In this document: positions 2,938 to 62,128 of the stretch, in pieces
How the letters are laid out: every line of letters begins with the position of its first letter
Position numbering within the stretch: position 1 is the first letter of the stretch
NCBI GenBank assembly: GCA_021296485.1
Contig: JAGWAI010000001.1
Coordinates: forward strand, 21,854-85,853
From: Acidobacteriota bacterium
GTDB taxonomy: Bacteria > Acidobacteriota > Vicinamibacteria > Vicinamibacterales > UBA8438
DNA length: 64,000 bases
Direction: 5' to 3'
The notes under the pieces: model-generated
Told to the model about the DNA's origin: nothing
Database searches by the model: none
What the model saw: the letters and a program-made list of their open reading frames with translations, nothing else
Position numbers and translations under genes: made by a program

Positions 2938-4314
2938 TCACTGCTGATCGTCCGAGTTGCGCGCGTTGCGCTCCGCGACGCGCGCCTTGTAGTCGTTCTC
3001 GTCGATGTAGTAGTAGCTGACCCAGGCGAACGACATCTCGTCAATGGTTCGCTGCCCGTACACCACATTGTTGCGCGGGTCGGGATTGACTCGCAGCGAC
3101 TCCGAGTTGTCGTGCCACGTGCTCACGTGGATGACCGTTCCGGCCGGTAGCACCGGCGCGGCCTCCTCGGCATAGTTGTAGACAAGGTGCCAGTTGAAAT
3201 ACCACTTCGGAACGCAGTTCAGCGTCACCTGCTCCATCAGCGGCGCGGCGCCGTACGGTCCCGGCGCCCGCTTCAGCACGTTACCCTCGTCGTCTGTCTG
3301 CGGAATGATGGCCTCGATGCACTGGGCCTGTCCGCGCGTATGCAGGTGCGGCTGGAACGCCGTGACGACCGCCGGCTCGGTCAGCAGCGTGTAGCCGTCG
3401 GTGCGGACGCTGTCCTGTCCGGCCGGAATGAGCAGATCGTCGTCGTCGCCCATGTGCTGGCTGATCAAGTCGTACTTGGGTTTGTAGCCGACGGGATACA
3501 GCTGGAGCCCGAGCTTCACCATCACCGGAACCTCTTCCCCGTACGGATGGAGGTGCAGGCCGAAGCGGATCTTGGTCCCCGCCTTGATGAGCCGGCCGGT
3601 ACCCTCGTCGAAAATATCGCCGTTCTTTCCGACGGCGTACTCGTTGAGGAAATTCCCGCGCGTGACGTCCTCGTCGAAGACCGTCATGTGCGTCGTGCCG
3701 TGGTGCAGGACCTCGAGGCTGGCGGCGTCGGGCTTCATCTCGACCGCCCTGATGTAGCGGTCCTCGGTCAAGCCAGGGTCGGCCATGATGTTCGGGAACT
3801 GGTCAGGACCTTCCGCCGGCAGCATGTACGGCTCGGGCATGGCCACGATCAGATCGGGCTCGCCCATGCGCCAGTCCTCGGGGCCGAGGAATTCTACCGG
3901 CGGAGGCGCGTCGGCTGGATTGCCGCGCGGTGCACCCGCGTCCGCCCAGGCGGCTATGGTCGCAATCTCCTCGTCCGTAAGCGACGGATCGTCCTTGAAA
4001 TCCTGGATGCCGATGCGCCGGTCGATGTACCAGGGCGGCATCTCGCGCGCCACGACGTAACGCTTGATGGATCGCGCCCAGGGGCGTGCGTCCTCGTACG
4101 TCACGAGCGACATCGGAGCGATGGCGCCGGGACGGTGACAGATCTGGCAACTGCGCTGCAGGATGGGCAGCACGTCCTTCGTGAACGTGACGTCGTGCGC
4201 CGCGCCAGCCGGCTGCGCCAGCGCGACGTGCGCCCCGAGCACGACGAACATCACGGCGGCGCCCGCCAGCAAGTGCGCGAAACGCTTGCGACCGAGTTGG
4301 AATTCGAGCGTCAT
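2938..4314 (-). CDS. Secreted cytochrome c fused to a PHM-like copper monooxygenase region
   Basis: The product is 458 residues. Residues 1-34 form a signal peptide. A c-type haem motif CQICH is at 56-60, with Met92 a possible axial ligand. The C-terminal two thirds resemble the two copper domains of peptidylglycine alpha-hydroxylating monooxygenase (PHM): HHGTTHM at 204-210, HLH at 254-256, HLH at 323-325 (context QPHLHTRG) and Met427 in TIDEMSF. This repeats the order His-His, His, His-X-His, Met that binds the two coppers in PHM. Electron supply from haem to copper inside one polypeptide is an inference. It heads the leftward run, and the gene at 1-503 is a close duplicate. The ATG at 4314 has GGGGAG just upstream. 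Substrate unknown. Confidence 0.8.
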   Translation of the reverse strand: MTLEFQLGRKRFAHLLAGAAVMFVVLGAHVALAQPAGAAHDVTFTKDVLPILQRSCQICHRPGAIAPMSLVTYEDARPWARSIKRYVVAREMPPWYIDRRIGIQDFKDDPSLTDEEIATIAAWADAGAPRGNPADAPPPVEFLGPEDWRMGEPDLIVAMPEPYMLPAEGPDQFPNIMADPGLTEDRYIRAVEMKPDAASLEVLHHGTTHMTVFDEDVTRGNFLNEYAVGKNGDIFDEGTGRLIKAGTKIRFGLHLHPYGEEVPVMVKLGLQLYPVGYKPKYDLISQHMGDDDDLLIPAGQDSVRTDGYTLLTEPAVVTAFQPHLHTRGQAQCIEAIIPQTDDEGNVLKRAPGPYGAAPLMEQVTLNCVPKWYFNWHLVYNYAEEAAPVLPAGTVIHVSTWHDNSESLRVNPDPRNNVVYGQRTIDEMSFAWVSYYYIDENDYKARVAERNARNSDDQQ

Positions 4315-35182: not shown

Positions 35183-36817
<1,635 letters not shown>

Positions 36818-36826
36818 GCATCACCT

Positions 36827-36928
36827 ACTTGGGGCCGCGCAGCCTCACCAACTTGGGGCTGCGCGGCTTCACCAACATCAACTTGGGGCTGTGCGGCCTC
36901 ACCAACTTGGGGCTATGCGGCTTCATCA
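36827..36928 (+). repeat. Tandem array of about 24-base units after groL
   Basis: Four units start with ACTTGGGGC at 36827, 36851, 36881 and 36905. Three are 24 bases and the second is 30 through a six-base insertion. A fifth start at 36929 leads straight into the structured element, whose first hairpin begins with the same TTGGGGCTGCGC. The array looks like repeated copying of the edge of that element. The 327-base gap 36818-37144 contains this array, the element and a short plain stretch, and no credible gene. Confidence 0.8.
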
Positions 36929-36930
36929 AC

Positions 36931-37049
36931 TTGGGGCTGCGCCCCAAACCCCCGCCGGCCACTCGCGGGGACCCCATTGCCCCACTCCGTGGCCGGCGGG
37001 CCGCGCTGTGCGCGGCTTGGGGACGACGGCTTCAGTGCTCGTCGTCCCC
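36931..37049 (+). repeat. Dispersed four-hairpin structured element, copy A
   Basis: Four stems can be drawn in order. H1: 36931-36937 with 36941-36947, 7 bp, loop TGC. H2: 36953-36962 with 36989-36998, perfect 10 bp. H3: 37000-37006 with 37010-37016, 7 bp, loop TGT. H4: 37019-37027 with 37041-37049, 9 bp, 13-base loop. Copy B at 60896 has the same four stems and the same loop lengths in H1, H3 and H4. The two copies are roughly 80 percent identical. Within H2 several paired positions differ in both arms and remain paired, which favours selection on structure. Confidence 0.75.
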
Positions 37050-37057: not shown

Positions 37058-37144
37058 TCCATCCGGTGGGGGCAGTACGGCCCTCATTCGCACACCTACT
37101 CATAGGGGTTGCTGATTTGGCAGCCGGGCGCCTGGCAAACCTCC

Positions 37145-38110
37145 TCAGCGGAGGTTGAAGTCGAGGGCAACGCTCACCAGGAGCGCGACCGGCTCACCGA
37201 ATCGCGTGGCCGGGTCGAAAAGCCACTGACGGGCAGCCTTGATGGCCTCCTCGTCGAGCCCAAAGACCGGATCGAGGGAGCGTGTAACCCGTACGTCGCC
37301 TACAGTTCCATCGGGCAGCACGACCACCTCAAGTATGACGGTGCCCGTAACTTTGGCGCGCAGTGCCTCGGATGTGTACTGCGGTTTGACCTCGCGGAGC
37401 ACGCGCGGATTCACGATGCCGGCGCCCGGACGGTAGACACCGCCACCGACGCCGCCGCCGGTACCGGGTCCCAGACCCGAACCGGTCCCCGGCCCGCTCC
37501 CGGCGCCTTCGCCGCTGCCGGCGCCGCCGCCGGTACCGCTGCCCTGCGCGCCGGTGTCGGCGCCGGCCAGGGCGTCCAGCACGCCGCTCCGCGTCCGGTC
37601 GGCCGACGCCATGGATACCGCCGGGATGTTCATCTGCTGCGCACTGAGGGTTTCCGGCTCGGGTTCCTGCTCCACAACCACCGGCTCGTCCGGGATCGGC
37701 ACGCTGAGCGGTGTTTCATCGGCGCCCGGCAGCTCGACGAGCTGCGGCAGCTCCAGCGACTCGTTGCCGCCGCCTCCGCCTCCGCCGCCGGGCCCCTCCT
37801 CCGGCAGCCAGACGATGCTGTAGTTGTCGCGCGCGGGAATGATCAACTCGTACACCGGCTCCGGCGTCAGGCTGATGATGAGGGCCACCAGCAGGCCGCC
37901 GACGACGTGCCCCGCGAGGGACGCGGCGAGCGAGCGGCCCATCCGCTCCTCGGTGGCCCCGAGCAGGAACCGCACGTCCCGCGGCCCGAAGGACTCGGGC
38001 CGAATCGACAGCGAGGCGAACTGCTGCTCGGATTCCCCGTTGCGGGTGGTCCCATGCGCAGCCGGTCGGCTACGCGACAGGAACGGTAATCGACCGAAGT
38101 TAAGGCTCAT
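37145..38110 (-). CDS. TonB-like energy transducer with a glycine-rich linker
   Basis: The 321-residue product has a cytoplasmic N-terminus of about 60 residues and one membrane span near 60-82 (AASLAGHVVGGLLVALII). A long periplasmic linker follows, then a C-terminal TonB domain (PRVLREVKPQYTSEALRAKVTGT, VVVLPDGTVGDVRVTRSLD, AARQWLFDPA). The linker is mainly Gly/Ser/Thr (about residues 195-235) plus a Gly run near 115, where classical TonB has Pro-Lys/Pro-Glu repeats. ATG 38110 is chosen over GTG 38134, with no strong ribosome site for either. No ExbB/ExbD gene is adjacent. Confidence 0.82.
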   Translation of the reverse strand: MSLNFGRLPFLSRSRPAAHGTTRNGESEQQFASLSIRPESFGPRDVRFLLGATEERMGRSLAASLAGHVVGGLLVALIISLTPEPVYELIIPARDNYSIVWLPEEGPGGGGGGGGNESLELPQLVELPGADETPLSVPIPDEPVVVEQEPEPETLSAQQMNIPAVSMASADRTRSGVLDALAGADTGAQGSGTGGGAGSGEGAGSGPGTGSGLGPGTGGGVGGGVYRPGAGIVNPRVLREVKPQYTSEALRAKVTGTVILEVVVLPDGTVGDVRVTRSLDPVFGLDEEAIKAARQWLFDPATRFGEPVALLVSVALDFNLR

Positions 38111-60515: not shown

Positions 60516-60881
60516 CTACGGCGTCCGGCGGCGGTGCAGCCACCATCCATAGACCGCGGCGTTCACGATCACTACGACGGCGCCGAGCGCGATCTGCGTC
60601 GGGCGCGTCAGACCCGCGGGATATAGCACCGGCAGTATGTACTCCCGCACGAAGTCGCCCTCGTACGTTCCGCCGCCGCCCAGCGATCGCAGGTGGTTCT
60701 CGATGGGCGTCAAGGGACAGACGCCCCCCGACCACTCTATTCCGGCGCCCCAGACAACCGCCGGCAGGTGCACCCACGCCGCGCGCGGCCAGCGCCAGAC
60801 CGCCAGACCGCCCGCCACCACGAATCCGACGAAGGCAAGGTGCAGCATCACGACCAGGTCGGCGAGCAGTAGATGGGACAC
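60516..60881 (-). CDS. DUF2784 membrane protein
   Basis: The 121-residue product has three to four hydrophobic segments: LLLADLVVMLHLAFVGFVVAGG, the AAWVHLPAVVWGAGIEW region and IALGAVVVIVNAAVYGWWL. It carries the family block CPLTPIENHLRSLGGGGTYEGDFV and YILPVLYP, matching DUF2784, whose function is unknown. GTG 60881 is chosen because AAGGA lies about six bases upstream. The structured element copy B ends 14 bases further upstream and would form this gene's leader. The stop is 16 bases before the esterase ATG. Confidence 0.85.
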   Translation of the reverse strand: MSHLLLADLVVMLHLAFVGFVVAGGLAVWRWPRAAWVHLPAVVWGAGIEWSGGVCPLTPIENHLRSLGGGGTYEGDFVREYILPVLYPAGLTRPTQIALGAVVVIVNAAVYGWWLHRRRTP

Positions 60882-60895
60882 TCGGCTTCCTTTGG

Positions 60896-61013
60896 ATGGG
60901 GCTGCGCCCCAAACCCCCGGCAAGCCCTGGCGGGGACCCCATAGCCCCGCGCCGGGCTGGCCGGGCCGCGCCGTGCGCGGCTGGGGACGACTTCCGGCAT
61001 GCTCGTCGTCCCG
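60896..61013 (+). repeat. Dispersed four-hairpin structured element, copy B
   Basis: The stems match copy A. H1: 60897-60902 with 60906-60911, loop TGC. H2: 60917-60927 with 60954-60964, 10 of 11 positions paired. H3: 60965-60971 with 60975-60981, loop CGT. H4: 60984-60991 with 61005-61012, 13-base loop. It fills most of the 200-base gap between divergent genes (60882-61081). The remaining 70 bases before the peptidase hold no gene. On the minus strand it would be the leader of the DUF2784 gene. Confidence 0.75.
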
Positions 61014-61081: not shown

Positions 61082-62128
61082 GTGCGTGTCATCATCTGTT
61101 TCGTGCTTGCAACGTGGGGTTTCAGTGCGTCGGCGCCGCCGCCTGGCGGGGACGGCGGGTTGACGGCGATCGACGGGCTCAAGGTCGGTCACCACACGCT
61201 CTCCGAGCGCCCCACCGGCTGCACGGTCGTGCTGGCCGAGGCGGGTGCGACGGCCGCGGTCGACGTTCGCGGGTCGGCCCCCGGCACGCGCGAGACGGCG
61301 CTGCTCGACCCGACCAATACAGTCCAGCAGGTGCACGCTATCGTGCTGGCAGGCGGCAGCGCCTTCGGCCTGGCGGCGGCCGAGGGCGTGATGCGCTATC
61401 TGGAGGACCGCGGCATCGGATATGAGACTCAGGCCGCCCGCGTTCCCATCGTGCCGGCCGCCATCCTGTACGACCTGGGCGTCGGCGGAGACCCCGCGAT
61501 CCGGCCCACCGCAGACTGCGGCTACCGCGCCGCCCGTGACGCGAGCGATGCGCCGGTCGCCGAGGGCAGCGTCGGCGCCGGCGCCGGCGCCACCGTCGGC
61601 AAGCTGGCCGGACCGGACCGTTCCATGAAGGGCGGCATCGGCACCGCGCTCATACAGCTTCCCGGCGGCGTCCGGGTCGCCGCGCTGATGGCGGTCAACG
61701 CCGTCGGCGACATCGTGGACCCCGATACCGGCGCCATCGTCGCCGGCGCCCGCACGCCGGACGGGCGCGGTTTTGCCGATGCCCGGGCGCTGCTTCGCGG
61801 CGCGGGCTCAACCCGCGCCGAAGGCGGCCAACATACGACCATCGGCGTGGTCGCGACCAACGCCGCGCTCGACAAGGCACAGCTCGCGCTGCTGGCCCGA
61901 ATGGCCCATGACGGGTTGGCCCGCGCGGTGCGGCCCGCACACACGCCGGCCGACGGCGATGCAATTTTCGCCGTCGCGACCGGCGCCAACGACGGCGCTG
62001 TCAGTCTGTTGCAACTTGGCGCCGCCGCTGCCGACGCGACCGCCGACGCAATCTTGCGCGGCGTGCGCGCCGCAACCGGATTGCCCGGCTACCCGTCCGT
62101 CCGGGATCTCGAGGGAGGTGTCTCCTGA
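61082..62128 (+). CDS. P1 family peptidase (DmpA-type N-terminal nucleophile aminopeptidase)
   Basis: The 348-residue product has a possible short signal (RVIICFVLATWGFSASA) and the S58/P1 core: IDGLKVGHHTLSERPTGCTVVL, IVLAGGSAFGLAAAEGVMRYLE, VPAAILYDLG and VGAGAGATVGK. The probable self-cleavage site is in GGQHTTIGVVATNAALDKAQ, where a Thr takes the place of the DmpA Ser as N-terminal nucleophile. GTG 61082 is the best start; the open frame extends to 59822 but that part is antisense to real genes. GGGAGG at its end serves as ribosome site for cstA. Confidence 0.88.
   Translation: MRVIICFVLATWGFSASAPPPGGDGGLTAIDGLKVGHHTLSERPTGCTVVLAEAGATAAVDVRGSAPGTRETALLDPTNTVQQVHAIVLAGGSAFGLAAAEGVMRYLEDRGIGYETQAARVPIVPAAILYDLGVGGDPAIRPTADCGYRAARDASDAPVAEGSVGAGAGATVGKLAGPDRSMKGGIGTALIQLPGGVRVAALMAVNAVGDIVDPDTGAIVAGARTPDGRGFADARALLRGAGSTRAEGGQHTTIGVVATNAALDKAQLALLARMAHDGLARAVRPAHTPADGDAIFAVATGANDGAVSLLQLGAAAADATADAILRGVRAATGLPGYPSVRDLEGGVS

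Follow-up and report, generated by a model that had tools for sequence, protein, structure and literature searches.

A dispersed, REP-like hairpin chain with freely rewritten but complementary stems in the Vicinamibacterales

The stretch of DNA analysed here (the window, 64,000 nt of contig JAGWAI010000001.1) belongs to a 2.38-Mb metagenome-assembled genome (MAG) of the Vicinamibacteria (Acidobacteriota), which consists of 105 contigs, is 88% complete and is referred to below as G000. Two of its gene gaps, one between convergent and one between divergent genes, each hold a complete element made of four hairpins, H1 to H4 (copies A and B, Table 1). The first-pass annotation had described two intergenic segments of about 120 nt with this common hairpin order; both were confirmed in place, as were the equal loop lengths of the two copies (3 nt in H1, 3 nt in H3 and 13 nt in H4, in the same 8-pair register). 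A second stem inside H2, GCGGGG...CCCCGC (CCCCAC in copy A), was absent from that annotation's list. Both copies fold in the four-hairpin form, with folding z-scores of -5.9 (plus strand) and -6.1 (minus strand) for copy A and of -2.3 and -3.4, respectively, for copy B. Elsewhere in the window, positions 1-300 and 3788-4087 are 82% identical segments of neighbouring minus-strand genes, likely the outcome of a local gene duplication.

Table 1. The two hairpin chains of the window, their parts and the genes beside them.
Feature	Position	Strand	Description
groEL (Cpn60)	35186..36817	+	Pfam PF00118; ends 2 nt before the copy A scar array
Scar array 5' of copy A	36819..36931	+	Four 24-30-nt units, repeat family D4; putative scars
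Copy A	36932..37049	+	Complete four-hairpin element, H1->H4 order
Copy A H1	36932..36946	+	TGGGGC-TGC-GCCCCA
Copy A H2	36953..36998	+	Outer stem CGCCGGCCAC/GTGGCCGGCG; inner stem at 36965-36985
Copy A H3	37000..37016	+	GCCGCGC-TGT-GCGCGGC
Copy A H4	37019..37049	+	GGGGACGAC...GTCGTCCCC, then CCTTTATTT
TonB C-terminal-domain gene	37145..37942	-	Pfam PF03544; convergent with groEL, copy A between
DUF2784 gene	60516..60881	-	Pfam PF10861; start (codon-usage caller) faces copy B H1
Degenerate scar and foot 5' of copy B (probable)	60870..60896	+	TAGATGGGACACTCGGCTTCCTTTGGA; missing from the empty site in G001; assigned from sequence
Copy B	60897..61012	+	Complete four-hairpin element, H1->H4 order
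Copy B H1	60897..60911	+	TGGGGC-TGC-GCCCCA; from sequence, pairs counted in alignment
Copy B H2	60918..60963	+	Hypervariable outer stem CGGCAAGCCC/GGGCTGGCCG; inner stem GCGGGG/CCCCGC at 60930-60950
Copy B H3	60965..60981	+	GCCGCGC-CGT-GCGCGGC
Copy B H4	60984..61012	+	GGGACGAC-13 nt-GTCGTCCC
Peptidase family S58 gene	61082..62128	+	Pfam PF03576; divergent from the DUF2784 gene, start lies past copy B H4

Copies A and B are members of a dispersed, non-coding, structured and mobile repeat family. Used as blastn queries, they each return about 60 matches in G000, and a covariance model made from 36 full-length copies returns 122 there at a threshold of E<=0.01, together with at least 59 in the congener G001 and at least 60 in a second congener. 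Several G000 contigs start or stop in or near a copy (for example C78:1-121, C78:86014-86141 and C58:97-217), and C78 and C58 appear adjacent via one copy. The assembly thus seems to be broken by the repeat, which makes the copy numbers underestimates. Three or four hairpins in a fixed order make up the unit, which is about 88 or 122 nt long and has a near-constant 5' end (277 of 287 matches start at H1) and a 3' end that falls mostly after H3 or after H4 and its tail. In most copies it carries a foot of TTAGA, TCAGA, TTACT or CTAGA, the forms being YTAGA/YTACT in G000 and GCTTCAATCAGA in JAAXGX.

The family is confined to a narrow host range in the genomes sampled. Matches were found in 25 of 60 genomes searched, G000 included, which represent several families of the same order, and many genera had none. 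A draw of 149 genomes across the phylum gave four matches, all from the Vicinamibacterales, and the sampled Acidobacteriota outside this order yielded no element. A strict 43-nt pattern run against the GTDB collection (84,980 species) hit, apart from the window's own genome, which that collection may lack, only three Vicinamibacteria MAGs, one of them JAJEEU (G001). The single strict-pattern match in G013 lies on contig JAJEEA010000337 (loci L180 / L090), which comes from a sister sample and is possibly mis-binned; the flank of the element there matches G001 locus L192. The earlier statement that the structure is not a known RNA family agrees with the lack of any covariance-model match in Rfam 15. 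A limited search of the literature turned up no account of the element, nor of comparable repeats in this soil phylum, for which it is a large additional repeat family.

The feature that had drawn attention to the two copies was a set of double changes in H2. At pairs 2, 5, 6 and 8 both arms do differ between copies A and B with Watson-Crick pairing retained, and copy B lacks pair 4 (A.G), as first described. Further copies keep the H2 pairing as well. Over all stems of the 36 full-length copies, 94.4% of cells are paired. In the alignment of these 36, 78 cells are altered on both sides, compared with 26.9±3.9 after shuffling and at most 13 in slid controls, in which moving the partner column by 1-3 columns destroyed the signal. 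The 12 pairs with changes on both sides are distributed unevenly over the chain: one of 6 in H1, 6 of 10 in the outer and none of 6 in the inner stem of H2, 3 of 7 in H3 and 2 of 8 in H4. Among 93 full-length copies there are 48 distinct H2 arm pairs, many of them perfect and most of the others with one mismatch. Across genera (36 family loci), 286 of 324 H2 cells are Watson-Crick, against 186±7 when the right arms are re-dealt, although the former figure is optimistic since the loci from genera other than that of the window were chosen with a model that favours paired arms. The H4 stem of JAAXGX reads GGAGTCTGC/GCAGACTCC in place of GGGGACGGC/GCCGTCCCC, with its position unchanged.

The first-pass annotation took these double changes as strong evidence for a conserved structure. 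The changes themselves are real, while as proof of selection they are too strong a claim when taken alone, because G.U is no commoner than A.C and either DNA-level pairing or template-switch correction gives the same pattern. An RNA structure would be expected to tolerate G.U on one of the strands. Of about 920 H2 cells read on the plus strand, 12 are G.T and 9 are A.C (the latter equivalent to G.U on the other strand); in tRNA stems of a congener the G.U share is 4.4%. The cross-genus set, chosen in part by the pairing-rewarding model, has one G.T in 324 H2 cells. An exception exists in the inner stem of H2, where one pair reads C.A in 41 copies while some genera have T-A, a path that runs through a wobble on the minus strand. 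Strand-specific RNA pairing was considered and set aside, as neither strand shows an overall excess of G.U. Since G.U is no commoner than A.C, the pairing looks maintained in DNA rather than in RNA; the pattern points to pairing kept at the DNA level, or to arms that are copied from each other.

Template switching during replication yields multi-base compensatory changes (PMC8794818) and could make stems perfect by copying one arm from the other, requiring no selection for structure, in a repeat that is spread by any means. The change of arms in multi-base blocks, the many perfect arm pairs and the rarity of wobble intermediates all agree with such a process. It is nonetheless an improbable account of the whole element, as it leaves unexplained the order and spacing of H1 to H4 across genera, including the wholly different H4 stem of JAAXGX, and mismatches are kept in some lineages (H2 of JAAXGX and the GCTCGGTCGC group). 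With dozens of stem versions inside a single genome, placed at sites subject to turnover, the repeat offers a natural test case of when compensatory double changes prove RNA function, and covariation scans for new structured RNAs could take such repeats for RNA genes.

The copies occupy a defined genomic niche. Intergenic positions account for 226 of 236 copies, while 94% of the window is coding, and the H1 end is usually no more than 30 nt away from a start or stop codon. Per gene gap, with genes called by a simple codon-usage caller, 39 sites are convergent, 27 divergent, 71 co-directional with the element antisense and 29 co-directional with it in sense. The 71:29 orientation bias, in which H1 more often points toward the start of the gene downstream (p=3e-5), goes beyond what mobility alone explains. 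On these data it may reflect a target near starts that is specific to one strand, counter-selection of the opposite orientation, or a leader function.

Copies after a stop codon recur, each time in more than one genus, beside certain genes: one whose product ends in GTGSPxNxxAxF (G000 L055, JAAXGX L174 and G010/G022/G026) and a putative von-Willebrand-like gene (G002 and G024), named from a reading of its sequence. A conserved gene partner was rejected because these genes are only 46-69% identical, a level at which paralogy or re-use of the site is an equally likely cause. Also rejected was a reading frame on the minus strand whose stop codon would lie next to the following start codon; 1-nt indels between copies leave no frame kept.

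The third possibility above would make the element a portable 5' leader, whose minus-strand transcript (H4-H3-H2-H1-AUG) carries hairpins that affect the translation or stability of the downstream mRNA. Such a role is compatible with mobility, many copies then being kept for regulation, and we regard both the role and this extension of it as unlikely, if worth keeping in view. In addition to the 71 of 100 co-directional gene pairs with H1 toward the downstream start, there are 28 copies whose end lies 1-12 nt 5' of a start codon, and in 26 of these the interval has no Shine-Dalgarno motif. The minus strand folds slightly better, and the one exceptional inner-H2 pair is a wobble on that strand. 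Against this, about half of the window's genes have no Shine-Dalgarno motif anyway, such that insertion there may simply be tolerated; the 39 convergent and 29 sense sites give no leader; and no overall minus-strand excess of G.U is seen. The positions are, moreover, mostly not common to the congener, and shared-site copies are no more alike than random pairs, as set out below.

Site turnover was read from 1.56 Mb of G001, in which 20 of the G000 copy sites were found with both flanks. G001 has a full copy at 4 of these 20 sites and none at 16, of which, read by eye, 12 are clean and four hold a scar or remnant (L021, L036, L042 and L083). The copy B site measures 150 nt in G000 vs 16 nt in G001, and the copy A site with its scars 326 nt vs 72 nt, the copy being absent from G001 in both cases, although absence there can also reflect loss. 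Four shared sites of 20 exceed expectation (p about 0.007, a rough estimate with about one gene gap in 25 occupied in G001). Where both genomes have a copy, the two are 83% alike, against 80±9% for random pairs, and their H2 arms often differ. Because they are hardly more alike than random pairs, most of these sites appear, judging by the sequences of their copies, to have been re-used or to have had their copy replaced, rather than to have been inherited. At locus L085 (G000:C18, about 3813-4198), a 5' part of tRNA-Gly, the element, the whole tRNA and another copy follow one another as a partly duplicated region, and the G001 counterpart of this site carries a copy in the opposite orientation.

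At the copy A site, the 72 nt of G001 hold an apparent ordinary intrinsic terminator of groEL (GCCCGCCGGGGGATATCCCCCGGCGGGC-TTTTTTT) that is missing in G000. That copy A sits where the congener has this terminator, and that its H4 precedes CCTTTATTT, would fit a chain in which H4 or the complete set of hairpins ends transcripts. This is highly improbable for the family, as most copies have CTCC or TTCC and no U-tract after H4, many forms stop at H3, and divergent sites occur roughly as often as convergent sites (8:8 and 15:11 in G000 and G001).

The units 5' of copy A suggest how copies may be lost. In each, the 5' half of H1 runs at TGCGC straight into the 3' end of H3 and the foot, and units of this kind stand alone at the orthologous G001 sites of L042 and L036. 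The 24-30-nt units are probably deletion scars between the TGCGC repeats of H1 and H3. Complete H1-H3 units stand head to tail in JAAXGX with a period of about 95 nt, and composite arrays overall combine tandem 95-nt units, hybrids, 24-nt scars and optional H4, as in the mosaics of BIMEs. One possible direct repeat (TGCTTGG) was seen at L057 and no general target-site duplication, in empty sites that were read by eye and have inexact ends. A second dispersed repeat, TTGTCAGCCGGGCGCCTGACCGGTCTCGGTGCGACGCGGGGTTTCACCACGGGCTGCTAG, has about 40 matches each in G000 and G001, spread over many contigs (for example G000:C27:5267-5331), and 21 in G002; it sometimes stands directly 3' of the four-hairpin element, and a possible remnant lies near window 37117-37141.

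A REP-like element is the best reading in view of the high copy number, the empty sites, the scars and the turnover of copies from one congener to the other. Of the three options first offered, a mobile REP/MITE-like element, a terminator or a structured leader RNA, the mobile element is clearly the best supported on these same grounds, and the terminator is not supported. The family is probably a non-autonomous, non-coding and dispersed REP/BIME-like DNA hairpin element of the Vicinamibacterales that is mobilised in trans. A Y1 transposase (PF01797) was absent from G000, G001 and G002, all of them incomplete MAGs (88%, 94% and 71% complete, respectively), and no hairpins of this kind flank the Y1 genes of relatives; an association with RAYT/Y1 was rejected on these two grounds. 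A reverse transcriptase domain occurs in G001 and is absent from the incomplete MAGs G000 and G002. Spread driven by reverse transcription with truncation at one end was likewise rejected, since the non-H1 end lies mainly at two fixed places and the reverse transcriptase is absent from G000.

The REP-like element mobilised in trans would consist of the foot (YTAGA or YTACT) followed by H1-H2-H3, with H4 and its tail optional. New copies would insert in a fixed register, with the H1 end beside gene starts or stops and often at sites already used, and old copies would be lost by deletion between the TGCGC repeats of H1 and H3, leaving a 24-nt scar. The hairpins may work at the DNA level, in single-stranded or extruded form, and would then serve a trans-acting enzyme as substrates in the manner of REP or IS200/IS605 ends. 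The sequence of H1 and H3 would then be kept for recognition, whereas the arms of H2 and H4 would be free to change while they stay complementary, by way of selection on active copies, template-switch correction, or both. A more speculative and rather doubtful proposal is that the chain propagates itself with no dedicated transposase, inserts in an oriented manner before start codons and serves as both mobile DNA and a ready-made 5' leader, its arms being rewritten blockwise by template switching or DNA-level selection. If true, this would constitute a class of mobile regulatory repeats distinct from REP/RAYT systems.

REPs are palindromes of 20-40 bp with GTAG or CGTC feet, many of which are linked to RAYT genes (Di Nocera 2013, PMC3733652). 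The present element resembles REPs and BIMEs in its high copy number, its extragenic position near gene ends, its hairpin with a short unpaired foot, its mosaic and clustered arrangements and its species-specific variants. It differs in having a foot of YTAGA/YTACT/TCAGA rather than GTAG or CGTC, in linking three or four hairpins over about 90-120 nt where a REP has one 20-40-bp palindrome, and in preferring starts as much as stops; its tandem units run head to tail and not as inverted dimers, and no RAYT was found in the genus genomes. Because the foot and the transposase were tested and neither was as in REPs, the element is not filed as one. With REPIN/RAYT systems (TnpA-REP) it shares the nature of a non-autonomous repeat spread with no gene of its own, although it has no inverted REP pair and its genus has no detected Y1 transposase. 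IS200/IS605 elements, which have hairpin ends and insert beside a short target, offer a working analogy only: in them, too, a hairpin adjoins a short T-rich foot and one orientation toward the target is preferred, whereas tnpA was not seen with the present element and the internal hairpins make up its entirety.

Bacterial MITE-like repeats such as ERIC, Correia, RUP and BOX are intergenic, non-coding sequences of about 100-130 nt that fold as RNA or DNA. The element matches them in length, intergenic place, folding and non-coding nature, but neither clear terminal inverted repeats nor a general target duplication was seen, and its sequence is unrelated to theirs. What is unusual is the combination of an ordered hairpin chain, H2 and H4 arms that are freely rewritten yet complementary, scars at re-used sites and a bias toward start codons. 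The four-hairpin repeat is new as a family, not as a kind.
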